Source of the DNA: a virus
Reading direction: 5' to 3' (one strand)
Virus record (IMG/VR): IMGVR_UViG_3300042922_000397
Location: 1 to 31,210 of that record
DNA length: 31,210 nt
Positions 227-17,388 of the stretch are shown here, one piece after another (within the stretch, counting starts at the first letter, position 1; every line of letters begins with the position of its first letter). The position numbers and the translations under genes are program-made. The notes beneath the pieces were generated by a model. The model saw only the letters and a list, made by a program, of their open reading frames with translations, had not been told where the DNA came from and ran no database searches.

Positions 227-262
227 AAAGACTTCGCAGAATTTGCGAGGTCTTTATTTTTT
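227..262. terminator. Intrinsic terminator at the end of the integrase gene / attachment region
   Basis: A 12-bp stem (AAAGACTTCGCA with TGCGAGGTCTTT, one G-T wobble) and a 5-base loop, followed on the plus strand by an A and a run of T. It overlaps the integrase stop codon at 254-256. The T run favours plus-strand termination; the minus-strand side is only moderately U-rich, so use for the integrase transcript is less certain. Confidence 0.65.
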
Positions 263-1441: not shown

Positions 1442-1533
1442 TTAATCAAATCCTTTCTGAAATTTTTGCTGTGTACGGTTTGATTACCTCTGTGTCCAGT
1501 TCTTAAAGTCGTACACGGGCGCGTCGAAGCAGA

Positions 1534-1757
1534 GGTGTGTCCACGTGTCCGGTCTAAATTGCGCTGGACACACTACCGGACACACCCGCAAGTGAAGTAG
1601 TTGTAAGGCTTTGCTGGTTTATGTGTCTACTGTGTCTGTTAATCTCTATTAATTAATAAATTATAGATATATAGAGTAATAAGACCTACTATATACACCA
1701 TATACGCTATAATAGCGCACGCAAGAGAAAATAGCAGTCGGACACACAAACGGACAT
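1534..1757 (+). repeat. GTGTCC element, copy 1 (candidate origin or structured RNA)
   Basis: This fills most of the 325-base gap 1442-1766 between the integrase and the immA-like gene. It is a diverged direct copy of 17134-17360. Exact GTGTCC or GGACAC hexamers lie at 1537, 1545, 1566, 1578 and 1740, with degenerate ones at 1623, 1632 and 1752 and one more outside the element at 1492. An extended hairpin pairs 1534-1542 with 1578-1586 and 1545-1553 with 1563-1571. A small stem with a GTAA loop lies at 1599-1610 and another at 1705-1717. The centre (about 1639-1700) is very AT-rich. Comparing 1534-1571 with 17134-17171 by hand gives 34 of 38 identical bases, and TAGCGCACG-AAGAGAAAA (1713-1731) differs at one position. 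The element also covers the likely integrase promoter region. Function unknown. Confidence 0.8.
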
Positions 1758-1766
1758 GGCTCAGTT

Positions 1767-2243
1767 TTATAGTTCACCTCCTTTGATGGAACGTATGTTT
1801 GATCTAAGGGGTAAAAAATTTTTATAAGCGCTGTTTTTAAACAACTCAATTCGCAGAGTGGCTATTTGTAGGTTCACGCAGAAGTGCTCCGCTATTTCAC
1901 CAGGGCGATATAAACCGTCGTGTAGCACTTCAAGTAAATCTTCATCGGGGATTAAATAATTGGCTGCCCATCTGAGGGCTTTATACTCTGATTTATCAAT
2001 TGTCAGGCGATGGGCGTAATTGAAAAACTGCTTTGGTAAGCAGTCACCGACAGATGTGAAATGATGCCCTAATTCTTCTGCCATAATAGACCTTTCTTCT
2101 GAGAGGTGTTTTATCAAACTGCTTAAGCCGATAATAGGCGGGCGCTCGGTCTGACATATGTAAATTCCTTTTAGCGGCGGTTCCAAATGAAATTTTTCAA
2201 CAATTATCTTCTCGCTGTGAGCTAAGTTCAACATGTTTTCCAT
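1767..2243 (-). CDS. ImmA/IrrE-like metallopeptidase, variant active site
   Basis: Probable partner of the repressor encoded just upstream on the same strand. ImmA-type proteins cleave or inactivate their XRE repressor on induction. The 158-residue protein carries the family's zinc-motif region as MAEELGHHFTSVGD (about 54-67). The first histidine of canonical HExxH is Glu (Glu56-Glu57-Leu-Gly-His60). To my knowledge this AEELGHH form is common in Firmicute phage members. A KALRWAANYLIP segment follows (about residue 89), as in the family, then a winged-helix-like tail (PGEIAEHFCVNLQIATLRI). The ATG at 2243 follows a GAGGGAG about 10 bases upstream. The gap to the repressor stop is 12 bases, so the two are cotranscribed. 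The family call is confident; peptidase activity is not. Confidence 0.85.
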   Translation of the reverse strand: MENMLNLAHSEKIIVEKFHLEPPLKGIYICQTERPPIIGLSSLIKHLSEERSIMAEELGHHFTSVGDCLPKQFFNYAHRLTIDKSEYKALRWAANYLIPDEDLLEVLHDGLYRPGEIAEHFCVNLQIATLRIELFKNSAYKNFLPLRSNIRSIKGGEL

Positions 2244-2255
2244 CAGTTGACTCCC

Positions 2256-2942
2256 TCAATCGTACTTAACGCCGTGTTTTTCAAATATAAATTTTTTGAA
2301 GTCTTCGATTGATTTTCTTGCTTCTTCCGGCAGCTCACTGGAGGGATCATCAGTACGATGAGCGGCGATAGTTTGACAGTTCGGCAGTGGTTGCTCTGTT
2401 TCAGCAATTCGCTTAATTGCTTCCTTCTTTTCAGAAGGGAGTTTTTTTATTTTACGCGCGAGCTCTACTATTTCTTTGTCTTCAGTAAAAGGCTCGGCAA
2501 AATCTTCAGCCGCACTGCTGACCGGACCTTCGTAATTAGGGGGCTCTTGACGCGCGAGTGCAGACCTTAATGCTCCCGGTGGAAGATCAAGAGCTTCGGC
2601 AATCGGCGCCATCATTTCATAATCATAACCTCCGGGTTGTATATCATCGAGGCCCTCTAAATAGTTAAGAGAAATTTGAACTTTTTTCGACAGTTCAGCC
2701 ATTGTCATTCCAAGTTCACTAAGACGGCCCTCAATAATGTTAATTAAAGCTTCTCCTGTGAGGCGGTCAGTAGAAACATTTAGAGCATCTGCTAAATCTT
2801 CAAGAGTACTAAAACTAGGGTTGTATCTGTCGTTCTCCACATCGGCTAGATATGACCTCGATATGTTTGCCTTTGCCGCTAGATCTTTTTGGGTGATTTT
2901 CCGCTTTCTTCTAAGGCTCTTGATTTTTGAACCAAGTGACAT
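2256..2942 (-). CDS. XRE-family phage repressor with two HTH domains
   Basis: Likely CI-type repressor that maintains lysogeny by binding the operator repeats immediately upstream. From the ATG at 2942 it has 228 residues. The N-terminal HTH_3 domain reads KIKSLRRKRKITQKDLAAKA followed by NISRSYLADVENDRYNPS. A second, weaker HTH-like segment follows (MTMAELSKKVQISLNYLEGL). After that come a flexible acidic stretch and a C-terminal helical tail. I chose 2942 over the upstream TTG at 2960 because an AGGGGG ribosome-binding site lies between them at proper spacing. The promoter at 2987-3015 overlaps an operator repeat, indicating autoregulation. The ImmA-like gene follows in the same operon. Confidence 0.9.
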   Translation of the reverse strand: MSLGSKIKSLRRKRKITQKDLAAKANISRSYLADVENDRYNPSFSTLEDLADALNVSTDRLTGEALINIIEGRLSELGMTMAELSKKVQISLNYLEGLDDIQPGGYDYEMMAPIAEALDLPPGALRSALARQEPPNYEGPVSSAAEDFAEPFTEDKEIVELARKIKKLPSEKKEAIKRIAETEQPLPNCQTIAAHRTDDPSSELPEEARKSIEDFKKFIFEKHGVKYD

Positions 2943-2986
2943 TTTAAAACCCCCTGTCAAATGTCGTATATACCGACCTAAAGATT

Positions 2987-3015
2987 ATTATAGAATATGT
3001 TTGACGGTAATACAA
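2987..3015 (-). promoter_or_regulatory. Repressor promoter (leftward)
   Basis: On the minus strand, -35 TTGTAT (3010-3015) and -10 TATAAT (2987-2992) are separated by exactly 17 bases. The nearest minus-strand gene start is the repressor ATG at 2942. Operator-like repeat TGACGGTAATACAA (3002-3015) covers the -35 element and part of the spacer, so a bound repressor would block this promoter. Confidence 0.75.
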
Positions 3016-3142
3016 CTCATAAAATGACGGAAATACAAGTAATTTAAAGCAAAATGATGTATTAGCAAGTAATCTCTCGTTAATGCTCTTACAAGGTCTA
3101 AAATGCTTAATTTTGCGTTTTTACAAAATGACGGAAATACAA
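3002..3142. promoter_or_regulatory. Operator cluster of the lysogeny switch
   Basis: Four related 14-base repeats lie in the same direction between the divergent regulators: TGACGGTAATACAA at 3002-3015, TGACGGAAATACAA at 3025-3038, a weaker TGATGTATTAGCAA at 3055-3068 and TGACGGAAATACAA at 3129-3142. The first overlaps the leftward repressor promoter. The last lies just before the ribosome-binding site of the Cro-like gene, probably within the rightward promoter (two overlapping TACAAT hexamers at 3138-3148 are -10 candidates). They are probable binding sites for the XRE repressor and/or the Cro-like protein. Confidence 0.65.
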
Positions 3143-3166
3143 TACAATCAAATCGTGGAGGTGGTA

Positions 3167-3388
3167 ATGGTGACGGATGGGCAAGACAAAAAAGTAATCG
3201 GGGCAAAGGTCTTAGGAGCGAGGAAAGAAAAGGGGCTTACTCAATTGCAAGTCTCAGAAGTTTCGGGTTTGTCGCGAAGCTACATTGCGGACATCGAGAA
3301 AGGCAGATATATGCCAAGCGTCAATGCGCTGGTGGAACTCGCTAAATGTTTAGAACTAGATCTTTCCTTTTTGACCCTCAAAACATAG
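3167..3388 (+). CDS. Cro-like XRE-family regulator
   Basis: Small DNA-binding protein (73 residues), essentially a single HTH_3 domain: KVLGARKEKGLTQLQVSEVS, then GLSRSYIADIEKGRYMPS and an ALVELAKCLELDLSFL closing helix. It faces the repressor across the operator region and is the first gene of the rightward operon, the standard position for Cro or an early antirepressor. The reading frame is open from 3083, but GGAGGT at 3157-3162 selects the ATG at 3167 (or the adjacent GTG at 3170, which has better spacing). The recognition helix SRSYIADIEKGRYMPS closely resembles SRSYLADVENDRYNPS of the repressor, so both may read the same operators. Confidence 0.85.
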   Translation: MVTDGQDKKVIGAKVLGARKEKGLTQLQVSEVSGLSRSYIADIEKGRYMPSVNALVELAKCLELDLSFLTLKT

Positions 3389-3427
3389 CTGCACTTACTA
3401 AAAAATCGAAAAGGAGCGCTGTTCCGA

Positions 3428-3667
3428 ATGGCTGATGCTGTACCAGTTAATAAACTAGCTCTCACTCCGGAAGAAGCCGCAGCGCTTACACCTCTAGGTG
3501 AGGATAACATTCGCAGGCTATGTAGGTCAGATCCAACATTCCCCGCTTTTATGAATGGGAATAGGATAGTAATTCCTCAGAAGCCTTTTGAGGAGTGGCT
3601 GGCACGACAAGCTGAAAACCGAATCGGGTTTCCAGAGCTCACAAAGAGATCTACTAAAAGGAGGTGA
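3428..3667 (+). CDS. Excisionase-like HTH protein
   Basis: 79-residue basic protein with a MerR/AlpA-like winged-helix pattern: LTPEEAAALTPLGEDNIRRL (helix-turn-helix), then FPAFMNGNRIVIPQKPFEEW (the wing and following helix). This is the layout of HTH_17 excisionase and Cox-type proteins that bend DNA at attachment sites or act as regulators. It is preceded by AAAAGGAG at about 3411-3416 with a slightly long spacer. It sits after the Cro-like gene in the early operon, a usual place for a regulator or Xis. Without a cognate binding site shown, excisionase and transcription factor remain equally possible. Confidence 0.7.
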   Translation: MADAVPVNKLALTPEEAAALTPLGEDNIRRLCRSDPTFPAFMNGNRIVIPQKPFEEWLARQAENRIGFPELTKRSTKRR

Positions 3668-3672
3668 GAATC

Positions 3673-3822
3673 ATGATTGAGAGAGTAATCGTTATACCCG
3701 TTACTGAAGCGCCGCAAGTACAATCAGTTAGGACGAAGTTCCAAGCCGAAAAATCAAAGGTTGACTTCGTAGTGCCGGTAATATGTCTCATTGTCGTAGG
3801 CGCGTTCATGCTAGCGTTGTGA
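3673..3822 (+). CDS. Small predicted membrane protein (49 aa)
   Basis: Short ORF with a very strong ribosome-binding site (AAAGGAGGTGA ending about 7 bases before the ATG). The N-terminal 30 residues are polar and mixed-charge (MIERVIVIPVTEAPQVQSVR...). Residues 31-49 form one hydrophobic helix (FVVPVICLIVVGAFMLAL), so the protein is probably a C-terminally anchored membrane peptide. The stop overlaps the GTG of the next small ORF by four bases, pointing to coupled translation. I do not recognise the family; superinfection exclusion or a host-modulating role would fit the position but has no direct support. Confidence 0.65.
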   Translation: MIERVIVIPVTEAPQVQSVRTKFQAEKSKVDFVVPVICLIVVGAFMLAL

Positions 3823-3908
3823 GCTGCAAAACTTGCCCTAATAGAGACTTTTGTATCCCAGATGAGTGCCTAAAAGAAAAAAGCCGCTTCCACACGGAAA
3901 GCGACTAA
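3819..3908 (+). CDS. Tiny Cys-rich protein (29 aa)
   Basis: Begins with the GTG of a GTGA overlap with the preceding membrane-protein gene, so it would be translated by coupling; there is no separate ribosome-binding site. The 29 residues contain four cysteines arranged C-x2-C-x5-C-x4-C (SCKTCPNRDFCIPDEC), which could form a small zinc knuckle, followed by a charged tail. Not recognised. The even cysteine spacing and the overlap favour a real gene, but its size and the hairpin running through its 3' end (3883-3905) leave doubt. Confidence 0.45.
   Translation: MSCKTCPNRDFCIPDECLKEKSRFHTESD
3875..3905 (-). terminator. Minus-strand terminator-like hairpin
   Basis: On the minus strand this reads GTCGCTTTCC, loop GTGT, GGAAGCGGC, then six T, a C and four T. 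The stem has one G-T wobble and one bulged base; on the plus strand the wobble becomes a C-A mismatch and no T run follows. It therefore looks like a leftward terminator, yet no minus-strand gene that I can support lies to its right. It overlaps the tiny Cys-rich ORF. Confidence 0.4.
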
Positions 3909-3956
3909 CAAAAAATCTCAACTTCATTCTATAACGCAAAAGGGTAGGTGTCAATT

Positions 3957-4112
3957 ATGGCCAGTGATTTGGGCGAAGAAATACCCACTGAATTCCTGGC
4001 TGAAGCAATTCAATACTGTCAGATCCGCCATGCAGAAACGCAAGAGCAATCGTATGTAAAAGTCGCTGAAATACTCCAAGGAACCATTGATCAAAGAGGC
4101 AGCAGTAAGTGA
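3957..4112 (+). CDS. Small hypothetical protein (51 aa)
   Basis: Acidic, helical-looking protein of 51 residues (MASDLGEEIPTEFLAEAIQY...), with no membrane segment and one cysteine. A purine-rich GGGTAGGTG stretch lies upstream of the ATG, a moderate ribosome-binding site. It is followed directly by a T run and a 90-base gap with no gene before the TTG start at 4203. I do not recognise it; position in the early operon between regulators and replication genes suggests a small regulatory or anti-host protein, which is only a guess from context. Confidence 0.5.
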   Translation: MASDLGEEIPTEFLAEAIQYCQIRHAETQEQSYVKVAEILQGTIDQRGSSK

Positions 4113-4202
4113 TTTTTTTATTGAGTTGTGAAAAGAACAGAACTTCCCATTTTATGATATGCACATTAGCAAAAATTTATACATGAAAGGGTGAAATAAA
4201 AA

Positions 4203-4706
4203 TTGGCTAAAAAGCGCGGACCTAAAATTCCAAAACCTCCAGCTGGCCCTAAGTTCGAAAATGCCCTTGAAGCAGTTTTAACCTTGGCTGCCCGATTGAT
4301 TGACGAAAATCACGGCAGACTTGCTGAAGCTAAAATCTCGTACATCATGCGTAACGGCACTTGGAAGAAGAAAGGCGAGATTGTTGACGCTGATGTATCA
4401 GTAATCTCAGGTCCTAATCGTTTTGAGATGGACAAGCATTTCCGGATTCTAATTAATGCTGACTTGTGGGCCAGTGCTGACGATAAGCTTAAGGCCTACA
4501 TACTCGACAAGCAGTTAAGCCGCTGCGTGAAAGAAGAAACCGCTAACGGTGACGTGAAATGGTCCACCCGGGATTATTACCTAAAGGAATTCCCTTCTCT
4601 AATTGAAAGACACGGCTTGATTACTGCTGAGCTGCAGCAGTTTGACCGGGTTATGAAACAAACATCCGCGTCAGTTGAAGAAGAGCCTAACGAGTTTTTA
4701 GATTAA
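4203..4706 (+). CDS. PhageMetallopep-family protein with a degenerate zinc site
   Basis: Matches from memory the putative phage metallopeptidase family (PhageMetallopep, PF18894) over most of its 167 residues. Recognisable segments are a KISYIMRNGTWKKKGEI core, ILINADLWASADDKLKAYIL before the active-site helix, and the closing FPSLIERHGLITAEL. Where the family has an HELCH-type zinc motif (…VDHELCHC), this protein reads LDKQLSRC (about 100-107). Both histidines and the glutamate are replaced by Lys, Arg and Gln. It should not bind catalytic zinc or cleave peptides by the usual mechanism, so it is better regarded as a non-catalytic paralogue. TTG start at 4203, with AAAGGG about 11 bases upstream. 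First gene of the replication operon. Confidence 0.75.
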   Translation: MAKKRGPKIPKPPAGPKFENALEAVLTLAARLIDENHGRLAEAKISYIMRNGTWKKKGEIVDADVSVISGPNRFEMDKHFRILINADLWASADDKLKAYILDKQLSRCVKEETANGDVKWSTRDYYLKEFPSLIERHGLITAELQQFDRVMKQTSASVEEEPNEFLD

Positions 4707-4731
4707 ATACGTATTTGGAGGAGTTTGAACT

Positions 4732-5172
4732 ATGGATATCAATGTAAACGTGACGATCAATGCCCCAGTGATAGAAGGTCTTTTACAATCTTTCATTGCC
4801 TCATGGAATGGCCCTGTAGCCGATGCTAAGGACGCTAAGGCGGCTGAAGAAGTTAAGCCAACAACTACTACCCGGACAAGAAAGGAAAAGGCTACAGCTG
4901 CAGCAGAGCCGACTGAAGTTGTAGCTGCGAAAGAGGAAGCGGCTGCTGCAGCTGCGCCTGCTAAGTCCGAAGAAAAACCAGATGAAACAAAGCCTGTTGA
5001 AAGCAAACCCGTTGTCACTCTTGAAGCTGTACGCGAAAAATTAACTGCAATATCCCGCGCTGGTAAAAAGACCGAAGTAAAAGAGCTGATTACTTCTTTC
5101 GGTGCTGAAAAGCTGACGGATATTCCGGAAGATAAATATGCCGAAGTACTTGAAGCAGCAGAGGCGCTATAA
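4732..5172 (+). CDS. Hypothetical protein with Ala/Glu-rich linker
   Basis: 146 residues in three parts. A short hydrophobic N-terminal segment (MDINVNVTINAPVIEGLLQS) comes first. A low-complexity stretch of about 60 residues rich in Ala, Glu, Lys and Thr (about 32-92), surely disordered, follows. The compact C-terminal module (about 95-146) begins TLEAVREKLTAISRAGKKTE and ends IPEDKYAEVLEAAEAL. That C-terminal module recurs in phage replication-region proteins as far as I recall, but I cannot name it. GGAGGAG lies about 8 bases before the ATG, and the stop overlaps the next start (TAATG), implying cotranslation with the DUF2800 nuclease. Role unknown; a tether or replication accessory would fit. 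Confidence 0.6.
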   Translation: MDINVNVTINAPVIEGLLQSFIASWNGPVADAKDAKAAEEVKPTTTTRTRKEKATAAAEPTEVVAAKEEAAAAAAPAKSEEKPDETKPVESKPVVTLEAVREKLTAISRAGKKTEVKELITSFGAEKLTDIPEDKYAEVLEAAEAL

Positions 5173-6341
5173 TGGCTGCCCATGCAATTCTTAGCGCTTC
5201 AGCGTCGAAACGTTGGCTAAGTTGCCCGCCAAGCGCAAGGCTTGAACAGCAGTTCCCGGATTCAACAAGTGCCTTCGCAGAAGAAGGCTCCTTCGCCCAT
5301 GAGCTGGCTGAGCATAAACTTCGTGCGTATGTTCAAAAGGTCAGTAAGAGCAAGCACGAGGCCGCATATGCAAAGTTAAAGACTAATCAGTACTACTCTG
5401 AAGAGCTGGAAAGCTATGTTGAAAGTTACGTTGATTTTGTGAAAGAGCGAATCAATGCGGCGCTGGCCAGGACTAAAGATGCTGTGATCATGCTGGAACA
5501 GCGTTTAGACTTCAGTGAAGTAGTGCCAGAAGGATTCGGCACCGGTGACGTGGTGATTGTTGCAGATGGCTATGTGGAAGTCATTGACCTGAAATACGGC
5601 AAGGGCGTACCGGTGTCAGCAGAGGGTAACACGCAAATGCGGTTATATGGTGTTGGCGCTTACGGTGATCTCAGTATGCTGTATGACATTGACAAGGTAA
5701 TGATGACGATTTGCCAGCCGCGCCTGGATAGTATCTCTACGGATGAAATCACGGTGGACGAGCTGCTGAAATGGGCTGTAGAAACTGTAAAGCCTACAGC
5801 TGAAAAAGCCATAGCCGGCGAGGGTGAATTTGCGGCCGGTGATCATTGCCGGTTCTGCCGGGCAAAAGCAACATGCAGAGCCAGGGCAGATTACAACCTG
5901 GAGTTAGCCAAATTTGAATTTTTAGATCCAGCGCTGCTGACTGATGAAGAGGTGGGCGAAGTACTTGTTAAAGCCGATCAGCTGAAGCAGTGGGCAAAAG
6001 ATCTACAAGATTATGCGCTGGAACAAGCTGAGAAGCACGGTAAAAAGTGGCCCGGCTGGAAGCTTGTCGAGGGACGCAGTAACCGGAAATACACAGATGA
6101 AAAGGCCGTTGCTGACACCCTTACCGGTGCGGGTTACGAAGAAACAAAGATCTATAACCCCCGCGAGATTCTTGGTATCTCTGATATGGAAAAAGCCATC
6201 ACCAAGAAAAAGTTTAATGAATTGCTTAGTAGTCTAGTGATCAAGCCGACAGGAAAGCCTACGCTTGTTCCAGAGTCGGACAAGCGTCCGGAGATATCAT
6301 CAGTGCAGTCGGCCGTAAATGATTTTAGTGAAGCTATATAA
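5172..6341 (+). CDS. DUF2800 protein, Cas4/RecB-like PD-(D/E)xK nuclease
   Basis: Probable phage exonuclease of the Cas4/AddB-like group (DUF2800, PF10926), 389 residues. The nuclease core is readable: GTGDVV (Asp126) followed by VIDLKYGKG (Asp139, Lys141). A four-cysteine arrangement typical of iron-sulfur nucleases is also present: Cys18 near the N-terminus (RWLSCPPS) and Cys226, Cys229 and Cys235 after the core (HCRFCRAKATC). It would act on DNA ends during replication or recombination together with the neighbouring ssDNA-binding protein. The gene starts within the stop of the preceding one. Family assignment is strong; the exact polarity and substrate are not visible from sequence. Confidence 0.88.
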   Translation: MAAHAILSASASKRWLSCPPSARLEQQFPDSTSAFAEEGSFAHELAEHKLRAYVQKVSKSKHEAAYAKLKTNQYYSEELESYVESYVDFVKERINAALARTKDAVIMLEQRLDFSEVVPEGFGTGDVVIVADGYVEVIDLKYGKGVPVSAEGNTQMRLYGVGAYGDLSMLYDIDKVMMTICQPRLDSISTDEITVDELLKWAVETVKPTAEKAIAGEGEFAAGDHCRFCRAKATCRARADYNLELAKFEFLDPALLTDEEVGEVLVKADQLKQWAKDLQDYALEQAEKHGKKWPGWKLVEGRSNRKYTDEKAVADTLTGAGYEETKIYNPREILGISDMEKAITKKKFNELLSSLVIKPTGKPTLVPESDKRPEISSVQSAVNDFSEAI

Positions 6342-6367
6342 ATTTTAATTTAGAGGAGAAATGTGAA

Positions 6368-6940: not shown

Positions 6941-6954
6941 CCTCTAGCTAGTAA

Positions 6955-6981
6955 AAGAGGCGGGGAAATATCCCGCCTCTT
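6955..6981 (+). promoter_or_regulatory. Intercistronic stem-loop after the ssDNA-binding gene
   Basis: A perfect 10-bp stem (AAGAGGCGGG with CCCGCCTCTT) with a 7-base loop lies between the DUF2815 stop and the next ribosome-binding site. No T run follows (GTTATATC), so it is not a normal terminator. It may stabilise the upstream mRNA, mark a processing site or act as a weak attenuator that lets the ssDNA-binding protein be made in excess. Confidence 0.6.
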
Positions 6982-7006
6982 GTTATATCAAAAGGAGGAA
7001 TGGGCA

Positions 7007-7264
7007 ATGCGATTTATTCAGGTAACTTTCGCTGGTAACACGGAAGTTTTATATGATTTCAAAACCAAATTGGACGTGGTGAGGGACGATTTAGTCGTTT
7101 GCCACACGGCACGCGGCTGCAGCATCGGGCGGGTACACGGCTTTCTCAGTAATTCAAAGAAGGCAACGAATTGGGCATTTCAACGGGTAGATATGGCAGC
7201 GCTGGATCGGCTGAGATTGGATGAAGAGCGAGAACAAAAGGAATTGGATGATCTGTTAGGATGA
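7007..7264 (+). CDS. Hypothetical protein upstream of DNA polymerase
   Basis: 85 residues from the ATG at 7007, chosen because AAAGGAGG ends about 8 bases upstream; the frame is open from 6980. The N-terminal half looks beta-rich (MRFIQVTFAGNTEVLYDF, then VVCHTARGCSIGRVHGF), and the C-terminal 25 residues form a charged helix (LDRLRLDEEREQKELDDLLG). The last four bases overlap the polymerase start (ATGA), so it is translationally coupled to it. I do not recognise a family. A small polymerase accessory is a reasonable guess from coupling only. Confidence 0.65.
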   Translation: MRFIQVTFAGNTEVLYDFKTKLDVVRDDLVVCHTARGCSIGRVHGFLSNSKKATNWAFQRVDMAALDRLRLDEEREQKELDDLLG

Positions 7265-9222
7265 GCGTTCTCAGCATTGACCTTGAAACCTATTCAAGCG
7301 TTGACCTAAAGAAAACAGGCGTTTACCCGTATGTAAGTTCACCTGACTTTGAGATTTTACTTTTTGGGTACGCCTTTGATGATCAGCCTGTACAGATTGT
7401 TGATAAAGCCCGCGGTGAGCGCATACCGGATATTGTTTTAAGTGCGCTGCGTGATCCATCGATATTAAAAACCGCCTTTAATGCAAACTTTGAACGTACT
7501 TGCCTTCATGAGTATTTCCGGGACGAAATGCCAGCGGATCAATGGCAATGTAGCGCGGTACACGCTTTAACACTAGGCCTACCGCACACCTTGGACGGTG
7601 TTTCAAAAGTGCTGAAGCTACCGGCAGATAAAGCCAAGATGGGGATAGGAAAGTCTGTAATTGCTTACTTCTGCAAACCTTGTAAGCCTACTAAATCGAA
7701 CGAACAGCGGACACGCAACCTGCCGACTCACGATCTGGAGAAGTGGAACCTCTTTAAAACCTATTGTGCTGCTGACGTTGAGGCAGAGAGAGCAGCGAGA
7801 AAGTTAATGCTGCGCTTTCAACCGCCCGAGGAAGAACGTAAACTATGGGCCTTAGATCAACGGATCAATGAGTATGGCGTGAAAGTGGATCAGACTCTTG
7901 TTGCTCACGCAATCGCCTGCGATACCGCCTATCAAAAGCGGTTAATTGCGGAAGCTGTCGAGTTGACCGGAGTAGACAATCCTAAAAGCGTGGCACAGCT
8001 GAAAAAATGGCTAGAAGATGCAGAAGGCATAGAGATTGACTCACTCAATAAAGAGTCCATTCCGGTGCTGCTGAAGCAGACAGAAAGTGATACCGTAAAA
8101 CGGGTGCTGGAGCTACGACAGGAAACCTCTAAAACCTCTGTTAAGAAATATGAGGCTATGGCCCGGGCCGTATGCCCCGACAGCCGCATACGTGGCTTGC
8201 TGCAGTTTTACGGGGCCAATCGTACCGGCCGCTGGGCGGGGCGTTTAGTACAAGTGCAAAACCTGCCGCAAAACAAATTAAAAGATTTGGACTTAGCCCG
8301 GCAGCTGCTAAGAGCTGGTGAATATGAAATGCTGGAATTGCTTTTCGGCAATGTGCCGGGTGTACTCTCTCAGCTGATTAGAACCGCTTTTATTCCGGAA
8401 GAAGGCTCACGCTTCATTGTATCTGACTTCAGCGCGATAGAAGCCCGGGTAATAGCATGGTTAGCCGGTGAACAGTGGAGGCTGGACGTATTTGCAAGTC
8501 ACGGCAAAATCTATGAGGCGTCGGCCGCGCAAATGTTCAAGGTACCGTTAGAGTCTATTGATAAAAACTCCCCCCTACGACAAAAAGGGAAAGTTGCCGA
8601 ATTGGCCTTAGGGTATCAAGGCGGCCCCAGGGCGCTTGTCAAAATGGGCGCTTTAAAGAACGGACTAACGGAAGAAGAATTACCCGCCCTGGTTAAAGCC
8701 TGGCGCGAAGCAAACCCGCATATCGTGCAGCTATGGTGGGCAGCACAGAGGGCCGCTATAGAAGCGGTTATGGAAAAAAGCACAGTAGCTTTCGTTAAAG
8801 GAATTGCCTTCAGATTTGAATCCGGAATGCTGTTTATTAGATTACCGTCCGGGCGGCGCTTAGCGTATGTACGGCCGCGAATTGAAATTGACGAGAAGTT
8901 TCAGAAGCCGTCCCTCACTTATGAAGGTATGGACCAGGAAACGAAGCAATGGGGCCGGTTGAAAACTTACGGCGGCAAACTGGTGGAAAATATTGTCCAG
9001 GCCGTTGCACGAGATTGCCTGAGGGAAGCAATGTTCCGGGCGGATGATGCCGGCTATAAAATCGGGATGCACGTCCATGATGAAATTGTGTGTGAAGTAC
9101 CGTTTGGTTTTGGCTCTGTTGATCATCTGGGCGAATTGATGGGGAAACCGATACCGTGGGCTCCCGGACTGCAGCTTCGGGGTGATGGGTACGAAACTGC
9201 TTATTATAAAAAAGATGATTAA
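7261..9222 (+). CDS. Phage family A DNA polymerase with 3'-5' exonuclease domain
   Basis: Replicative polymerase, 653 residues. The N-terminal exonuclease domain is of DEDD type: SIDLETYSS (Asp7, Glu9), AFNANFERT (about 72-80) and YCAADVEAE (Asp172). The polymerase domain carries TGRWAGR (322-328), motif A VSDFSAIEARVIAWL (Asp389), motif B from Arg440 to Tyr452 (RQKGKVAELALGY) and motif C HVHDEIV (His606-Asp607-Glu608). All expected catalytic residues appear present. It is shorter than bacterial Pol I because it lacks a 5'-nuclease domain, as is usual for phage versions. The start overlaps the preceding gene by four bases. Together with DUF2815 and VapE it forms the phage's own replisome. Confidence 0.95.
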   Translation: MSVLSIDLETYSSVDLKKTGVYPYVSSPDFEILLFGYAFDDQPVQIVDKARGERIPDIVLSALRDPSILKTAFNANFERTCLHEYFRDEMPADQWQCSAVHALTLGLPHTLDGVSKVLKLPADKAKMGIGKSVIAYFCKPCKPTKSNEQRTRNLPTHDLEKWNLFKTYCAADVEAERAARKLMLRFQPPEEERKLWALDQRINEYGVKVDQTLVAHAIACDTAYQKRLIAEAVELTGVDNPKSVAQLKKWLEDAEGIEIDSLNKESIPVLLKQTESDTVKRVLELRQETSKTSVKKYEAMARAVCPDSRIRGLLQFYGANRTGRWAGRLVQVQNLPQNKLKDLDLARQLLRAGEYEMLELLFGNVPGVLSQLIRTAFIPEEGSRFIVSDFSAIEARVIAWLAGEQWRLDVFASHGKIYEASAAQMFKVPLESIDKNSPLRQKGKVAELALGYQGGPRALVKMGALKNGLTEEELPALVKAWREANPHIVQLWWAAQRAAIEAVMEKSTVAFVKGIAFRFESGMLFIRLPSGRRLAYVRPRIEIDEKFQKPSLTYEGMDQETKQWGRLKTYGGKLVENIVQAVARDCLREAMFRADDAGYKIGMHVHDEIVCEVPFGFGSVDHLGELMGKPIPWAPGLQLRGDGYETAYYKKDD

Positions 9223-9234
9223 GGAGGATGTTTT

Positions 9235-9435
9235 ATGGCTGGGAAGATCAGTGTCGAGTATACGGAAGAAGATTTAAAGCAATTAATCCGTGAGGATTTG
9301 CTAAGAAAAATGCCAGGTATTAAAATTGAGCGTCATTCGATCAGCATTGAAACAAAGTCAAAACAAAATTATCGTTCGGAATGGGAAAGCGCTGCATTTC
9401 GTGGCAAAGTGGAGATTCCCGGAACAATGGTTTGA
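9235..9435 (+). CDS. Small hypothetical protein (66 aa)
   Basis: 66 residues, preceded by a perfect AAGGAGG about 8 bases before the ATG. The N-terminal helix is acidic (VEYTEEDLKQLIREDLLRKM) and the rest looks beta-stranded (IERHSISIETKS). Not recognised. It is located between the polymerase and the radical SAM gene, whose start follows one base after its stop, so the two are probably coupled. Confidence 0.65.
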   Translation: MAGKISVEYTEEDLKQLIREDLLRKMPGIKIERHSISIETKSKQNYRSEWESAAFRGKVEIPGTMV

Positions 9436-9436
9436 G

Positions 9437-10270
9437 ATGAAAAGGATCATCAGAGTTTTTCCTAAGAAATCATCTTTTACACCGATAGATGATCTTTGCT
9501 TTTTCGATGAACCAGGGGCTATTATACCGGAACACGATGAAATCCATGTCTGCGCAGTCTTTACGTGGGATAAAGAACGGGCCCTGGAACTTCAAGAGTC
9601 TTGGCAGGAAATGACCAACAAACCTGTTCTTGTAGGTGGGCCAGCTTTTGATGATCCGTGTACTTCTGAATTTATTCCGGGGCTGTATGTTGCCCCCGGA
9701 ATAACCTTTTGTAGCCGTGGCTGCCCCCTGGAATGCCCATGGTGCTTTGTACCTAAGAGAGAAGGAAGATTAAGAGAAACCGAGGTCAAAGCCGGGAACA
9801 TCATCCAAGATAATAATTTCTTAGGTTGTTCCTTGGGCCATCGTCGAAAAGTCTATGACATGCTTAAAACTCAGCGAAAAATTGATTTTAAAGGCGGGCT
9901 AAAAACTACCTGGCTGACCGATTGGGATATTGAAGAGATGCGCGGTTTACACATCCATGAACTTTGGCTAGCCTGTGATACCAAAGGCGCGTTAAACGAT
10001 CTGAAAACAGCGTGCGAAAGGCTGAAGAGAGCAGGCTTCAGTCAGAATAAAATTCGATGCTATGTACTAGTCGGTGACAGCATGGAAGAAAATCAGCAAA
10101 GACTTATTGAAGTTTATGAAGCTGGGGCATTACCTTTTGCGCAGCTGTTTCAACCAGAGGATCGGATTAAATACGATCAGGAATGGGAGCGGTTTGCAAG
10201 AACCTGGAGTAGGCCAGCTATTACACGGACTTTCATGAAAGAGTGGAGGATGAAAAATGGCAACACCTAA
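9437..10270 (+). CDS. Phage radical SAM protein
   Basis: 277 residues from the ATG at 9437. The frame is open from 9326, but that 37-residue extension lies wholly over the preceding gene. The radical SAM cluster motif C-x3-C-x2-C is present as CPLECPWC (Cys96, Cys100, Cys103), with an additional Cys at 92, so a [4Fe-4S] cluster and S-adenosylmethionine chemistry are expected. Before it, HVCAVFTWDKERALELQESW followed by PVLVGGPAFDDP resembles a reduced cobalamin-binding-like fold, as in B12-radical SAM enzymes, but no DxHxxG motif is visible. After it, CSLGHRRKVYDML and DIEEMRGLHIHELWLACD continue the barrel. The substrate is unknown; a nucleic-acid or nucleotide modification would fit a replication operon. 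It overlaps the next gene by 14 bases. Confidence 0.8.
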   Translation: MKRIIRVFPKKSSFTPIDDLCFFDEPGAIIPEHDEIHVCAVFTWDKERALELQESWQEMTNKPVLVGGPAFDDPCTSEFIPGLYVAPGITFCSRGCPLECPWCFVPKREGRLRETEVKAGNIIQDNNFLGCSLGHRRKVYDMLKTQRKIDFKGGLKTTWLTDWDIEEMRGLHIHELWLACDTKGALNDLKTACERLKRAGFSQNKIRCYVLVGDSMEENQQRLIEVYEAGALPFAQLFQPEDRIKYDQEWERFARTWSRPAITRTFMKEWRMKNGNT

Positions 10271-10890: not shown

Positions 10891-10911
10891 TGGGCTAAGG
10901 TGGTGTGAATT

Positions 10912-12273
10912 TTGGATTACAACGAGTTTCTAGATAAAAAACGAATCGTTGTAGCGTCTGCGGGAATTGATGTTCCTGCAGGTGCTATTAACAAAAACCT
11001 ATTTGAGTACCAGCATGATATTGTTCAATGGGCGCTTAAAAAGGGTAAAGCTGCGCTATTTGAAGGGTGCGGATTAGGTAAGACGCTCCAGATGCTAGAG
11101 TGGGCGAATCACGTTTTCGAGAACACCTGGCAGCCGGTACTCATATTGGCACCTTTAGCCGTAGCCGGTCAGACAGCAGCAGAAGGTGCCAAATTCGGCA
11201 TCGAAGTTAAGCAATGCAACAGTAAGGCTGACGTGATCGACGGTATTAACGTCACGAACTATGAAAAGCTCGAGCGTTTTGATCCTGCTGAGTTTTCCGG
11301 AATCGTACTCGATGAAAGCTCAATCTTAAAATCCTTCGCAGGTAAAATGCGAAACCAGATTATTGACGCCTTTGCTGATACCCGGTTTAAGTTAGCTTGC
11401 ACAGCTACGCCAAGCCCTAACGATTATATGGAGCTGGCTAATCATGCCGAATTTCTTGGCGTGATGACAAGAAATGAAATGCTCTCGATGTTCTTTGTTC
11501 ACGATGGCGGCGATACAAGCAAATGGCGCTTAAAAGGTCACGCGCAGGAAGAGTATTGGCGTTGGGTATCCTCCTGGGCGGTTATGATGCAAAACCCGGC
11601 AGACCTGGGATATGACGGTTCCGCTTTTATTCTTCCAGAATTGAATATTATTCCGCACACCATCATTACCGGTAAAGAACAGGCGAAGACATTGACTGAT
11701 CAGCGATTAGCCGCTAAAGACACTTTGATTGAACGCGTAAAACAATGCGCTGAGATTGTAAATAGCATTGATGAACCTTTTATTATCTGGTGCAATTTGA
11801 ATGATGAAGCTGACGCCCTGGTCAATGCAATCGAAGGGGCTGTGCAAATCCGGGGCGGTGATAAGCCGGAATACAAAGAGAAGATTCTAAAAGGTTTTAC
11901 AGATGGTACAGTGAAGCGCTTGGTCACAAAGCCGAGTATAGCCGGGTTTGGACTGAACTGGCAGCACTGCCGCAATGAGGCATTTGTGGGTTTGTCACAC
12001 AGTTTTGAACAGTATTATCAAGCTGTTCGACGGTGCTGGAGGTTTGGCCAGCAGAAGCAAGTTAACGTGCATGTTATTTCCTCCGATGTAGAAGGCGCTG
12101 TTGTCGAAAACATCAAGCGTAAAGAAGCAGAATTCAATATCATGCTGAAAAGCATGATCAGCTCTACACAAGAGATAACGAAAGAAAACATTCAAGCGAC
12201 TAGGCGTGATTCTGGGATTTATATCCCTTCAGTAAAAATGACACTGCCTGCATGGCTAAAGGAGGCCGGATGA
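10912..12273 (+). CDS. SNF2-type DEAD-like helicase/translocase (first of two)
   Basis: 453-residue superfamily 2 ATPase. Visible motifs are Walker A GCGLGKT (52-58), LILAPLAV (motif Ia), VLDESSILK as the Walker B box (Asp134-Glu135), and TATPSPN (164-170, motif III). In the C-terminal RecA lobe are IAGFGLNWQHC (motif V) and the QAVRRCWRFGQ arginine-finger motif VI. It would move along double-stranded DNA using ATP. The TTG start at 10912 follows AAGGTGGTG. It is directly followed by two DNA methyltransferases, a conserved association in Firmicute phages. It shares only general architecture with the second SNF2 gene at 17869. Confidence 0.9.
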   Translation: MDYNEFLDKKRIVVASAGIDVPAGAINKNLFEYQHDIVQWALKKGKAALFEGCGLGKTLQMLEWANHVFENTWQPVLILAPLAVAGQTAAEGAKFGIEVKQCNSKADVIDGINVTNYEKLERFDPAEFSGIVLDESSILKSFAGKMRNQIIDAFADTRFKLACTATPSPNDYMELANHAEFLGVMTRNEMLSMFFVHDGGDTSKWRLKGHAQEEYWRWVSSWAVMMQNPADLGYDGSAFILPELNIIPHTIITGKEQAKTLTDQRLAAKDTLIERVKQCAEIVNSIDEPFIIWCNLNDEADALVNAIEGAVQIRGGDKPEYKEKILKGFTDGTVKRLVTKPSIAGFGLNWQHCRNEAFVGLSHSFEQYYQAVRRCWRFGQQKQVNVHVISSDVEGAVVENIKRKEAEFNIMLKSMISSTQEITKENIQATRRDSGIYIPSVKMTLPAWLKEAG

Positions 12274-12274
12274 T

Positions 12275-13153
12275 GTGAAGGTATTAAATCAAACTCACGG
12301 CGATATGTGGGCACTTTACCACGGTGATTGTTGCGAGGTCCTGGATGGGCTTCCGGAAAACTCTATTGATTATTCCATATTCTCGCCGCCGTTTGCCTCT
12401 CTCTACACTTACAGCAACAGCGAAAGGGATATAGGCAATAACAAAGATTATCGTCAGTTTGCCAAACATATGCGGTTTTTAGCTCTGAAGTTGTACCGGG
12501 TAATGAAACCAGGACGGAACATATCAATACACTGCATGGATTTGCCGCTGCATAAAGAGCGTGACGGTGTAATTGGGTTAAGAGATTTCAGGGGGCACCT
12601 AATCCGCATATTTAACCGAGCTGGTTTCGTGCTTCATAGCCAAGTGACAATCTGGAAAAATCCTGTTACGGCTATGCAAAGGACCAAAGCACTTGGCCTA
12701 CTTCATAAGCAGTTAAAAAAAGATTCTTGCCTAAGTCGGCAGGGGATTCCTGATTATTTAGTAACCCTCAGAAAACCCGGTGTAAACCCTGATCCTGTTA
12801 CTCATACAAATGAATCCTTTCCGGTATCTGATTGGCAAGAGTACGCCTCGCCGGTATGGATGGATATTAAACCTTCAAACACACTTCAATATAAGGCCGC
12901 AAGAAGTGAAGACGATGAACGTCATATTTGCCCTTTGCAGCTAGAAGTAATTGAAAGAGCTTTGCGGCTTTGGACAAATACTGGTGACGTCGTATTAGAT
13001 CCTTTTAACGGCATTAGTAGTACAGGGCATGAAGCGATTAAATACGATCGGTATTATGTGGGGATCGAGCTAAAAGAAAGTTACTATAAACAAGGCGTTA
13101 AGAATTTGATCGAGTTAGAAGCTGAGAAATTTATAGAGGACTGCTTGCTATGA
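12275..13153 (+). CDS. Beta-class DNA methyltransferase (N4-cytosine or N6-adenine)
   Basis: 292 residues. Motif IV comes first as FSPPF (36-40) and the SAM-binding motif I last as DPFNGISSTG (242-251), the circularly permuted order of beta-class amino-methyltransferases. The SPP(Y/F) form is more usual in N4-cytosine enzymes, but N6-adenine activity cannot be excluded. The recognition domain lies between. GTG start at 12275 with AAAGGAGG upstream. The stop overlaps the next methyltransferase (ATGA). It probably protects phage DNA from host restriction or marks it; no partner endonuclease is recognisable in the operon. Confidence 0.88.
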   Translation: MKVLNQTHGDMWALYHGDCCEVLDGLPENSIDYSIFSPPFASLYTYSNSERDIGNNKDYRQFAKHMRFLALKLYRVMKPGRNISIHCMDLPLHKERDGVIGLRDFRGHLIRIFNRAGFVLHSQVTIWKNPVTAMQRTKALGLLHKQLKKDSCLSRQGIPDYLVTLRKPGVNPDPVTHTNESFPVSDWQEYASPVWMDIKPSNTLQYKAARSEDDERHICPLQLEVIERALRLWTNTGDVVLDPFNGISSTGHEAIKYDRYYVGIELKESYYKQGVKNLIELEAEKFIEDCLL

Positions 13154-14625
13154 ATATACCGTTGTTAGGAAGTCATTTTGATGGTATAAGCGGTTTTCCT
13201 TTGGCTGCTTTGCGGCACGGCATCATTCCGGTTTGGGCAAGTGAGGTAGAGCCTGGCCCGATTGCTGTTAGTAAAAAACACTTCCCAGAACTTCAGCACT
13301 TAGGCGATATTACGAAAGTCAATGGTTCAGAGATATGCCCGGTTGATGTGGTAACATTCGGGAGCCCTTGTCAGGATTTAAGCGCGGCCGGTAAAGGGGC
13401 GGGTATGAAAGTTGTATGTTCCGATTGCGGATACGCTTATGAAAAGAAAACTGTTGCGGAAGTTAAAGCGCTTCACTCCTTTTGCCCCGATTGTTTCAGC
13501 GAAGCAGAAGTGTCTTCAACAAGATCGGGGCTATTCATGGAAGCTATAAGAATTAACAGAGAAATGAGGGACGATACATGCGGAATATTTCCGAGGTTTC
13601 TGCTCTGGGAGAATGTTGCAGGAGCGTTGTCAAGTAATGGGGGCGCTGATTTTAAAACCGTGCTTGAAGAAATCGCAGAAACCAAAATTTCAATGCCTCG
13701 ATCTGGTAAATGGGCAAACGCAGGAATGGTTAGAAGCAACGGGGTTGATATCGCTTGGCGTATCCTGGACGCCCAATATTGGGGAGTGCCCCAGCGTAGA
13801 AAACGCATCTTTCTTGTCGCAGATTTTGGAGGAAGACGTGCCGGAGAAATATTATTTAAGCCCGAAAGCCTGCCGAGGTATATTGCGGAGAGCAAAGGAA
13901 CGAGGCAAGGAGCTACCCCCAATGCTGAAAAAGGCATTAGAATACCAATCTGGGATATTGGTGGTAGAAGACGTGTCTTAGAGTCAATAAATATTTCACC
14001 AACACTGTTATCTAAGATGGGGACTGGTGGTAATAACGTGCCAATTGTTCCAGCCGTTGGATTTAAAGCGAACGCCAGCATATCCGACAATGCGCCAGTG
14101 CTGAATGAGGCCACCCCACCTTTGCAGACTACAAGTCAAATTGCCGTTGCATTTCCGGAAGTATCAAATCCATTATTGGCTAAGGGAAACCTTTCCTATC
14201 GAATGGATATGGATACAGTAGTGGCGATACAGCACAGTGTAATTGGTAGGAGCGACAATGCAGGGCCCGCAGGTCCTGGATATCGAGAAGACAATAAGAT
14301 GTTCACGCTTGATAGCAGGGGCGCAGCAGTAGCAACAGTAGACTGCCGCAACCTGTACGAAAATCCGGAGTTAAGCGGAACATTGCAAAGTAAGTCGGGG
14401 GGCGGGCATAGCTTAAACTATCAAAACCCTGTACGCATAGGGTATGTCGTAAGACGCTTAACCCCTTTAGAGTGTGAACGCTTGCAAGGTTTTCCGGATT
14501 TTTGGACAATGGGGCAGCCGGATACAACCAGGTACAAGATGCTAGGCAACAGTGTAGCTATACCGTGCCCGGATTATGTGCTGGACGGAATAGCTAAAGC
14601 ATTGCGAGGTGAATTGCCCTTGTGA
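13150..14625 (+). CDS. DNA (cytosine-5) methyltransferase with inserted zinc ribbon
   Basis: 491 residues. Motif I is modified (LLGSHFDGISGFPLAAL); catalytic motif IV is FGSPCQDLS (Cys74); motif VI is WENVAG (Glu154-Asn155-Val156); motif VIII is QRRKRIF (215-221). Near the C-terminus come RRLTPLECERLQGFP (motif IX) and MLGNSVAIP (motif X). The long 221-430 region is the target-recognition domain. Between motif IV and motif VI there is an insertion with CxxC...CxxC (Cys90, Cys93, Cys112, Cys115) that looks like a zinc ribbon, right after the catalytic loop. It is coupled by four-base overlaps to the neighbours on both sides. Likely self-protection against host restriction. Confidence 0.95.
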   Translation: MNIPLLGSHFDGISGFPLAALRHGIIPVWASEVEPGPIAVSKKHFPELQHLGDITKVNGSEICPVDVVTFGSPCQDLSAAGKGAGMKVVCSDCGYAYEKKTVAEVKALHSFCPDCFSEAEVSSTRSGLFMEAIRINREMRDDTCGIFPRFLLWENVAGALSSNGGADFKTVLEEIAETKISMPRSGKWANAGMVRSNGVDIAWRILDAQYWGVPQRRKRIFLVADFGGRRAGEILFKPESLPRYIAESKGTRQGATPNAEKGIRIPIWDIGGRRRVLESINISPTLLSKMGTGGNNVPIVPAVGFKANASISDNAPVLNEATPPLQTTSQIAVAFPEVSNPLLAKGNLSYRMDMDTVVAIQHSVIGRSDNAGPAGPGYREDNKMFTLDSRGAAVATVDCRNLYENPELSGTLQSKSGGGHSLNYQNPVRIGYVVRRLTPLECERLQGFPDFWTMGQPDTTRYKMLGNSVAIPCPDYVLDGIAKALRGELPL

Positions 14626-17072
14626 ATACTCAAACAAAAGAAATATTCAAATCAATAAAGCTGAAGCATGACGGTAAGATCACCATTGCTACCGGCAGAA
14701 GCAGGCATGAAATGGAATGGAAGAACCGGGAAATGCAATGGTCCCAGTTGGTGGATAAGCTAAGTCAAACAACCAGGACGCGGGAAACGCTCGATGAGTT
14801 TGACAAGATGAGCAAACCCCAGCAGGACGAATTAAAGGACGTAGGCGGGTTTGTAGGCGGTACGCTCAAAGGCGGCCGCCGCAATTCCACCAATACAGCC
14901 TGGCGCCACATTATCACACTCGACGCAGATTTTGCTGATCCGGATTTCACAACCTTAGTCGATTTGCTTTTAGGTAATTGTGCGTATGCCATTTACAGCA
15001 CGCATAAGCACCGGCCAACAAAACCCCGGCTGCGCTTAGTGATCGTCTTATCCCGGCCAGTAACGCCAGACGAGTATCAAGCGATTTCCCGCCGTATTGC
15101 CGCGGATATTGGAATTGATCTATTCGACGATACAACCTATCAACCGCACAGGCTGATGTACTGGCCTTCAACTTCTGCTGATGCAGATTTCCTTTTCGAA
15201 TATAACGACGGCCCTTGGTTAGATCCTGACAAGATTTTAGCCAGGTATGAAGATTGGCGTGATCAGTCTTTCTGGCCAGAATCTTCGAGAGCGCATAAGG
15301 CCCGGAAACAATTAGCGGACCGTCAGGGCGATCCACACGCAAAGAATGGTGTTGTCGGGGCCTTCTGCCGCACGTACTCAATTGCAGAAGTGATTGAAGC
15401 TTTCCTGTCTGATGTATATGAGCCCTGCGCGATGGAAGGGCGGTACACCTACACCAACGGCACAGCAGCAGCGGGGCTAGTGTTATATGAAGATAAATTC
15501 GCCTATTCTCATCACGGTACTGATCCGATCAGTGGCAAGCTGGTAAATTCTTTTGACCTGGTACGCTTGCACAAGTTCGGGCATCTGGACGAAGAAGCAA
15601 AACCTGATACACCGACAGTTAAATTACCAAGTTATAAGGCCATGTTAGATTTTTCAACTAAAGACGTTAAAGTGAAGCAGTTACTGGGTGAAGAACGTCT
15701 TGCAGAAGCTAATAACGACTTTACCAACGCCGATGAAGCGGACGATAAAGCTTGGCTATCAAGGTTAGATATCGATAAGCGAGGAAAGTATTTATCAACA
15801 CCTGAAAACGCCATCTTAATTTTGCAGCATGATCCAAATCTTTCAGGAAAAATATCAAAAGATGATTTCGCCCACCGTATTGTCATTAACGGTGATCTTC
15901 CTTGGAGAAACCTAAAACACGGCACTTTCTGGGAAGATGACGACGAAGCGTGTTTATACAATTACTTCAGTAAAATATACGATATTTCGGGGCAAGGTAT
16001 TATCTCTAACGCACTAAAAGAAGTCCTAATGTATAATCGGTTTCACCCGGTTCGAGATTACTTAAATAGTCTTTGGTGGGATGGAGAAGAACGTATTGAT
16101 CGGCTTTTTATCGAATACCTGGGCGCTGAAGATAATGAATACACAAGAACGGTCACACGTAAAATGTTGATTGCTGCAGTTGCGCGTGTAATGGTTCCCG
16201 GCATTAAGTTTGATGAAATGCTTGTCTTAGTAGGACGGCAAGGGGCTGGCAAAAGTTATATACTTCAAAAGCTCGGCAAGGAGTGGTTTTCAGACTCTCT
16301 TACGACAGTACAAGGTAAAGAGGCCTATGAAATTTTGCAGGGAACTTGGATTGTTGAAATGGGCGAGTTGTCTGCATTAAAAAAGGCAGAAGTGGAAGCA
16401 ATAAAGCAGTTTCTTTCTAAAAAGGTAGATAAATTCCGTGTATCCTATGGTAAATATGCCTCTAACTTTCCGAGGCAATGCGTTTTCTTTGGGAGTACGA
16501 ATCGTGAAGAATTCCTACGTGATGTAACAGGCAATCGCCGGTTCTGGCCGGTAAAAATTGAAGCGCAGGAAAAAAACAAAAATGTTTTTAACGATCTAAC
16601 TGATTCTGAAATCGACCAAATTTGGGCCGAGGCCGCCATTGCTTGGCAGAACGGCGAATCGCTATATCTCGACGCAAAGATTAAATCTATGGCCCTAGAA
16701 GTGCAAGAAGCATATATGGAGGAATCCGATAAATCCGGGCAAGTTCAAGAGTATCTTGATAAGAAAATACCTCCTAACTGGGAAGATTTGGACTTGGGAG
16801 CAAGGCGCGAATTTCTCTATGGTGGGGATTTTGGGCAGCCTGAAGAAGGGACAATTGAACGCACCAAGATATGTGCTTTAGAAATTTGGGCTGAATGCTT
16901 TAATGGCGATCCACGTATGTTCGATGTGCAGAAATCCCGAGAGGTAAAGGATATAATGTACCGTATGCCGGGGTGGAAGCGTTATGAAAAAGGAACGGGT
17001 AAGATACGATTTGGCAAATTGTATGGACCTCAAAGGGCGTTTGTTAAAGAAGATTTTGATGTGTCCGATTAA
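14622..17072 (+). CDS. VapE-type primase-helicase
   Basis: 816-residue replication protein. N-terminal archaeo-eukaryotic primase-like domain: LDADFAD (Asp101, Asp103), STHKH (126-130) with KPRLRLVIVLSRP, and LFDDTTYQPHRLMYWP (168-183). The C-terminal VapE/D5-like helicase domain has Walker A GRQGAGKS (538-545), Walker B-like WIVEMGE (576-582), sensor-like GSTN (624-627) and RRFWP (639-643). It would unwind and prime phage DNA for the family A polymerase. GTG start at 14622 overlapping the Dcm stop. The last codons (GTG TCC GAT) already contain a GTGTCC unit (17061-17066), and the duplicated GTGTCC element begins just after the stop. A winged-helix C-terminal domain that I would expect in some relatives appears as a separate gene at 17389. 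Confidence 0.92.
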   Translation: MNTQTKEIFKSIKLKHDGKITIATGRSRHEMEWKNREMQWSQLVDKLSQTTRTRETLDEFDKMSKPQQDELKDVGGFVGGTLKGGRRNSTNTAWRHIITLDADFADPDFTTLVDLLLGNCAYAIYSTHKHRPTKPRLRLVIVLSRPVTPDEYQAISRRIAADIGIDLFDDTTYQPHRLMYWPSTSADADFLFEYNDGPWLDPDKILARYEDWRDQSFWPESSRAHKARKQLADRQGDPHAKNGVVGAFCRTYSIAEVIEAFLSDVYEPCAMEGRYTYTNGTAAAGLVLYEDKFAYSHHGTDPISGKLVNSFDLVRLHKFGHLDEEAKPDTPTVKLPSYKAMLDFSTKDVKVKQLLGEERLAEANNDFTNADEADDKAWLSRLDIDKRGKYLSTPENAILILQHDPNLSGKISKDDFAHRIVINGDLPWRNLKHGTFWEDDDEACLYNYFSKIYDISGQGIISNALKEVLMYNRFHPVRDYLNSLWWDGEERIDRLFIEYLGAEDNEYTRTVTRKMLIAAVARVMVPGIKFDEMLVLVGRQGAGKSYILQKLGKEWFSDSLTTVQGKEAYEILQGTWIVEMGELSALKKAEVEAIKQFLSKKVDKFRVSYGKYASNFPRQCVFFGSTNREEFLRDVTGNRRFWPVKIEAQEKNKNVFNDLTDSEIDQIWAEAAIAWQNGESLYLDAKIKSMALEVQEAYMEESDKSGQVQEYLDKKIPPNWEDLDLGARREFLYGGDFGQPEEGTIERTKICALEIWAECFNGDPRMFDVQKSREVKDIMYRMPGWKRYEKGTGKIRFGKLYGPQRAFVKEDFDVSD

Positions 17073-17133
17073 AGAATACGTGTGTCCAAACTATAGAGAC
17101 GGACACGGCAGTCAGAGAAAAGTCAAATGTCTA

Positions 17134-17360
17134 GGTGTGTCCGCGTGTCCGGTTTAAATTGCACCGGACACAATACCGGACACACCAGTAAACCGTCTAG
17201 CCGTAAGGCTTCATAGTTTCCTGTGTCCGGTGTGTCCATTAACTTCTATTAAATATAAAAAATAATAAATATAGATATTATATAGCGCGCGCGTAGTGCC
17301 ATAAACGCTGTATTAGCGCACGTAAGAGAAAAATAACGACCGGACACACGCATTGGACAC
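17134..17360 (+). repeat. GTGTCC element, copy 2 (candidate origin or structured RNA)
   Basis: This occupies the 316-base gap 17073-17388 between the primase-helicase and the winged-helix gene. Exact GTGTCC or GGACAC hexamers lie at 17137, 17145, 17166, 17178, 17223, 17232, 17342 and 17355, plus 17061, 17082 and 17101 just to the left. An extended hairpin pairs 17134-17142 with 17178-17186 and 17145-17153 with 17163-17171. A stem AGCC-GTAA-GGCT lies at 17199-17210, and a 5-bp stem at 17306-17318. The two hexamers at 17223 and 17232 can pair with those at 17355 and 17342, enclosing an AT-rich segment (about 17239-17285). Same orientation as copy 1, offset 15,600-15,603 bases. Iterons next to a primase gene with an AT-rich core look like a replication origin. 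Confidence 0.8.
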
Positions 17361-17388
17361 AGCTAATATTTTTATAGGAGTGGTACTT

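Follow-up and report, generated by a model that had tools for sequence, protein, structure and literature searches.

A temperate phage genome carries two related, essentially non-coding arrays in which GTGTCC/GGACAC iterons surround an AT-rich core, on the one hand an array directly downstream of vapE (copy 2), which from its sequence is in all probability a replication origin, and on the other hand a second array in the gap between the integrase gene (int) and immA (copy 1). This second array beside int is rare, and its iterons appear to have been kept by selection.

Two iteron arrays on either side of the replication genes

The whole stretch of DNA analysed here, hereafter the window, is a virus record of 31,210 bp. 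It comes from a contractile-tailed temperate phage and is probably truncated since its right end falls in the tail-sheath region. In the left part, int (minus strand) is followed by copy 1, by immA (minus strand), encoding an M78 peptidase and having its stop codon adjoining the right end of copy 1, and by a cI-like gene (minus strand). Rightward of the latter come the genes for a DUF2800 nuclease, a single-stranded DNA-binding protein, a family A DNA polymerase (PolA), an SNF2 helicase, two DNA methyltransferases and VapE, then copy 2 and the genes for a VRR-NUC nuclease, an SNF2 helicase, TerL, portal, capsid and tail proteins. The initial annotation had the two copies bracketing the replication genes, and with this gene order they literally do. 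A radical-SAM-like protein gene (9326–10270; weak Pfam match; phrog_9298) has polA to one side and the SNF2 helicase gene to the other, and the genes for adjacent N6/N4 and C5 DNA methyltransferases (12275–14625) are located immediately 5′ of vapE. The features considered below are the following:

254–1441, minus strand: tyrosine integrase (Pfam PF00589, 1.3e-29)
1490–1757, plus strand: copy 1, the additional iteron array between int and immA; 6 exact GTGTCC/GGACAC units
1636–1712, no strand: AT-rich core of copy 1; best 40 bp 88% AT
1713–1731, plus strand: shared block in copy 1, TAGCGCACGCAAGAGAAAA
1767–2243, minus strand: ImmA/IrrE-type M78 peptidase (Pfam PF06114, 6.1e-10)
2256–2960, minus strand: CI-like repressor (HTH_3)
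7261–9222, plus strand: family A DNA polymerase, also part of the replication module (Pfam PF00476)
14622–17072, plus strand: VapE, predicted initiator of primase-helicase type (Pfam VapE-like_dom, 7.8e-83; phrog_256, DNA helicase)
17061–17360, plus strand: copy 2, vapE-downstream iteron array, likely primary origin; 11 exact GTGTCC/GGACAC units
17236–17283, no strand: AT-rich core of copy 2, a putative unwinding element; best 40 bp 95% AT
17314–17332, plus strand: shared block in copy 2, TAGCGCACGTAAGAGAAAA
17559–17879, plus strand: VRR-NUC nuclease; in relatives its gene is the constant neighbour to the right of the array

When positions 17034–17400 were compared with the record by BLAST, the query matched itself and 1533–1747 on the same strand (72% identity, E=1.8e-26), which bears out the repeat pair initially described, in the same orientation and at a near-constant offset. 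The window holds 25 occurrences of the hexamer GTGTCC/GGACAC, where shuffled sequences hold 7.9 ± 2.9 and 0 of 100 shuffles reach 25, and 17 of these 25 occurrences lie within the copies, namely 11 at 17061–17360 and 6 at 1492–1745; four further units of copy 1, with one mismatch each, stand at positions where the unit is exact in copy 2. The AT-rich core and the block TAGCGCACG(C/T)AAGAGAAAA, both reported as common to the two copies, are found in each of them at the positions listed. The element was further described as non-coding, which is essentially right except for the left flank of copy 2, this being partly coding since its first GTGTCC (17061) falls inside the 3′ end of vapE, with the stop codon at 17072. 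The double hairpin is built mostly from inverted iterons; while pronounced in copy 2 (z −5.7 and −7.2), it barely goes past shuffled sequences in copy 1 (z −1.1 and −2.0). A small ORF (17353–17592), with a GTG start near 17390 and no family match, runs over the end of copy 2.

The vapE-downstream array as the probable standard origin of the module

Relatives were gathered via PolA and VapE and supplemented with named phages, giving 211 distinct loci, among which the region following vapE was readable in 161. With a strong array defined by a 7/8-mer array score above 15, such an array follows vapE in 81% of these relatives and is found in 1% of the 1535 segments drawn at random from the same loci as a control. 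Its place is conserved in synteny, i.e., the gap of about 280 bp between vapE and the VRR-NUC gene (quartiles 267, 283 and 305 bp), and in 145 of 155 cases the repeated word appears in either orientation within the array. The iteron word varies by phage (GTCAACA, GTCTACA, GGTAACA, GGAAACA, GGATACA, CTGATACA, CGGCAACA, TGGACACA and others); a loose frame, TG-NNN-ACA, is frequent among the iterons of the relatives, and the CGGACACA of the window is near that frame.

The candidate reader of these iterons is VapE itself. The window VapE matches 7PDS, which we take to be SaPIbov1 Rep (PriRep1), at 1e-119 in a profile search and 7e-84 in a sequence search. Its last 120 residues, as modelled (pLDDT 90), exhibit a winged-helix-like order of elements, and the model finds as significant structural matches only the six chains of 7PDS, described as “PriRep1 with dsDNA.” SaPI Rep reads the iterons immediately 3′ of its own gene via its C-terminal domain (PMC7581432). 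Since VapE is homologous to SaPI Rep, whose iteron origins sit right after rep, copy 2 is very likely a VapE-bound origin as judged by homology; the earlier proposal of an iteron origin bound by VapE is thus well supported for this copy by its conserved position, the initiator homology and the AT-rich core. Two features of the SaPI-type Rep-ori are found at copy 2, namely the homology of the initiator and an array directly 3′ of the initiator gene.

The pairing of VapE tails with iteron words was followed in nine C. difficile phages (L010, L033, L035, L110, L195, L199, L200, L201, and L202), where the whole VapE proteins are 95–99% identical and the parts outside the tail about 87–100% identical per 60-aa block. 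The last ~40 aa fall into three classes (100% identity within and 63–70% between classes), in exact correspondence with three iteron words. The VapEs of L110 and L202 have a body slightly off that of L033, yet share with it both tail and iteron, and between L033 and L010 the VapE bodies are almost identical whereas tail and iteron both differ. Linkage alone could explain this match, since tail and array are neighbours on the DNA. Across 110 diverse VapEs, a Mantel-type test found no correlation between the similarity of the C-terminal domain and that of the iterons (partial r −0.006).

Second arrays in other phages

Whether the pair always flanks VapE/polymerase modules, as the initial annotation asked, is answered in the negative, since about 95% of the relatives with a readable int slot have the vapE-downstream array only. 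Indeed, an array is present in 3 of the 68 readable int slots (window, L040 and L041) and lacking in the other 65; a fourth int–immA array, in L271 (IMGVR 2831408181), stands outside this count because it came from a pattern search. The int–array–immA layout is therefore encountered in four phages, with different integrases, and a fifth pair occurs in L012 (Dulem virus 37), where the second full array (L012:2739–3018) lies ~7 kb from int over small annotated ORFs. All five pairs are direct repeats. As it is missing in most relatives, copy 1 is dispensable for the module.

Between the two arrays of a phage, identity in the iteron columns and in the other columns is respectively 93 and 69% in the window, 98 and 80% in L041, and 97 and 81% in L012, an excess that 0–1 of ~270 circular shifts equals in these three phages. 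With iteron columns 93–98% identical against 69–81% elsewhere, the binding sites of these three pairs appear to be kept by selection. The two other pairs have iterons that differ partly or wholly between the copies. In L040 (1215–1475 vs. 11440–11695), the backbone is 86% identical and the iterons are in register, the variable triplet being TCA in the int-slot array (GTCAACA, i.e., TG-TCA-ACA) vs. GAT in the vapE array (GGATACA, i.e., TG-GAT-ACA), and the int-slot array resembles that of phiCDKH02 (75% over 249 bp). In L271 (1203–1470 vs. 15313–15585), GGAAACA and GGATACA iterons are mixed, and the pair is ~96% identical over the right ~150 bp and ~68% over the left part, which resembles a gene-conversion tract. 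With the iterons mismatched in L040 and mixed in L271, the VapE of a phage need not read both of its arrays.

Using copy 2, or patterns common to both copies, DNA searches of phages and viral contigs returned no close relative of the window. Copy 1 had no match in 380 genomes of one bacterial class (a search run without positive control), the Rfam search gave no match, and neither did the slot copies of L041 and L271 in the phage collection. With the L041 slot copy as query against 207 Clostridiaceae genomes, the best seven matches were all vapE-downstream arrays. Candidate extra arrays in L003, L157, L074, and L112 were rejected as coding or tandem repeats, and a weak second match in L034 as AT-rich DNA without iterons; the tandem coding repeats of L003:4113–4814 and L157:4930–5200 (VSGNA/VYGNA type) mimic iteron arrays in k-mer scans.

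Proposed roles of the two arrays

In the scheme proposed here, both arrays would serve as platforms to which VapE, the initiator encoded by the phage itself, binds. At copy 2, VapE would dock on the iterons via its C-terminal winged-helix-like domain, then open the AT-rich core and load itself as helicase, copy 2 being as such the main origin. Copy 1 would be a second platform of the same build and orientation, with iterons matched to those of copy 2 through selection, and in the window it is likely to be bound by VapE as well. It could act either (i) as a second, late origin, or (ii) as a VapE-bound block stalling the fork that comes from copy 2, with a resulting switch to concatemer (sigma) replication. 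By analogy with known systems, we lean somewhat towards a role in replication, as second origin or block, rather than as operator, decoy or relic. The paired origins suggested by the initial annotation are plausible for copy 1, considering that the iterons are conserved between the copies and that the layout recurs in other phages, its origin activity being putative. From homology, position, iteron conservation and recurrence of the layout, we infer the binding of VapE, the firing of the origin and the role played by copy 1, with moderate confidence in the scheme as a whole.

Comparison with known systems

It was initially stated that no described family has such a layout, which is too strong since SPP1 oriL/oriR works alike and the SaPI rep-ori is of the same kind as copy 2. 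Respective to SaPI/PICI elements, where the initiator is Rep (PriRep), the resemblance lies in the homologous initiator, the array right after the initiator gene and the C-terminal DNA-binding domain; the differences are that the window belongs to a phage and not a satellite, that it has a PolA/DUF2800/SNF2 module and that a second array is present near int. Copy 2 thus resembles a SaPI-type Rep-downstream origin placed in a phage.

In SPP1, oriL and oriR are 12–13 kb apart, and gp38 at oriR has been proposed as a fork block in the theta-to-sigma switch (PMC6316719, PMC3485210). As in SPP1, the window exhibits two similarly built origin-like regions (direct repeats and AT-rich DNA) in one phage, with one initiator, here a candidate. 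In contrast to the window, oriL is inside gene 38 and SPP1 is lytic; unlike VapE, the candidate initiator here, gp38 needs a separate helicase and loader. No origin-binding protein other than VapE was named among the window proteins searched, these covering part of the ORFs and gp38 not serving as a query. In phage P4, the alpha protein, at once primase, helicase and initiator, recognises one set of iterons at two cis sites far apart, ori and crr; likened to the window by description only, P4 differs in that crr is not a full copy of the origin. Searches for direct literature on VapE phage origins and on P4 crr found none, and a second array between int and immA, as well as iteron differences between copies, is undescribed in the literature searched, which covered few subscription papers.

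Alternative readings of copy 1

Copy 1 could alternatively be an operator, where lytic VapE would bind the int–immA gap and silence int or the 3′ portion of the lysogeny operon, thereby tying integration to replication. In each of the four int-slot phages, the array does take up the space 5′ of int, so that any int-specific promoter there must overlap it. We nonetheless consider this unlikely, for a few sites would do, and not a whole array with its AT-rich core and palindrome, conservation outside the iterons reaches the values given above for the L040 backbone (86%) and the right half of L271 (~96%), a sigma-70-like promoter was not found in 1400–1850, and the second array of L012 is away from int.

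That copy 1 is a functionless relic of duplication or recombination, its similarity to copy 2 being kept only by gene conversion, is doubtful. The rarity of second arrays, the mismatched iterons of L040 and the conversion-like tract of L271 all go in this direction, but conversion tracts alone would not leave the iteron columns of three distinct pairs so much better conserved than the backbone, nor does a relic sit well with the use of the same slot in four phages with different integrases.

Improbable too is a decoy or hijack origin which, in a lysogen, would titrate the VapE of an incoming related phage or be fired by it, in the manner of PER-like superinfection interference. The intact GTCAACA iterons of the L040 int slot match the origins of other phages and not its own GGATACA array, and precedents exist, as ectopic origins block lambda (PMC4488673) and the Sfi21 origin element has been reported to confer resistance (PMC6356513). 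PER elements and the Sfi21 ori element, here likened by description only, are similarly short non-coding phage origins that can interfere with phage replication; their effect, however, is described as copy-number dependent, and for PER a single chromosomal copy may fall short. In addition, the window, L041 and L012 carry the same iteron in both arrays, so the main array would serve equally as decoy.

Finally, integrase arm or excisionase sites, or chance, can be practically dismissed, for while copy 1 adjoins int, its repeat matches the vapE array and not int, L040, L041, and L271 differ in both integrase and iteron, 65 of the 68 int slots are without array, and chance is excluded by the BLAST E-value and the shuffle counts.

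Significance for VapE phages

Beyond the replication role favoured for copy 1, some temperate phages might keep a spare origin next to int and the immunity genes, with iterons that need not match the ones of their own initiator. Through it a prophage could react to the VapE of another phage or hamper it, or the spare origin could bridge a change in VapE specificity; origin specificity would then amount to a recognition code, written as TG-NNN-ACA and read by the tail of VapE, that evolves quickly between phages. This broader idea is speculative and we give it little credence. The mismatches in L040 and L271 pose the question of what use a phage has for an origin that its own initiator may not read.

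The relatives offer a large natural series of initiator-iteron pairs, with one backbone and many recognition sequences, in which a change of origin specificity is directly open to study. Should copy 1 work as a second origin or be a fork block, temperate VapE phages would have an SPP1-like two-origin layout with another initiator, offering a further system in which to test the theta-to-sigma switch.
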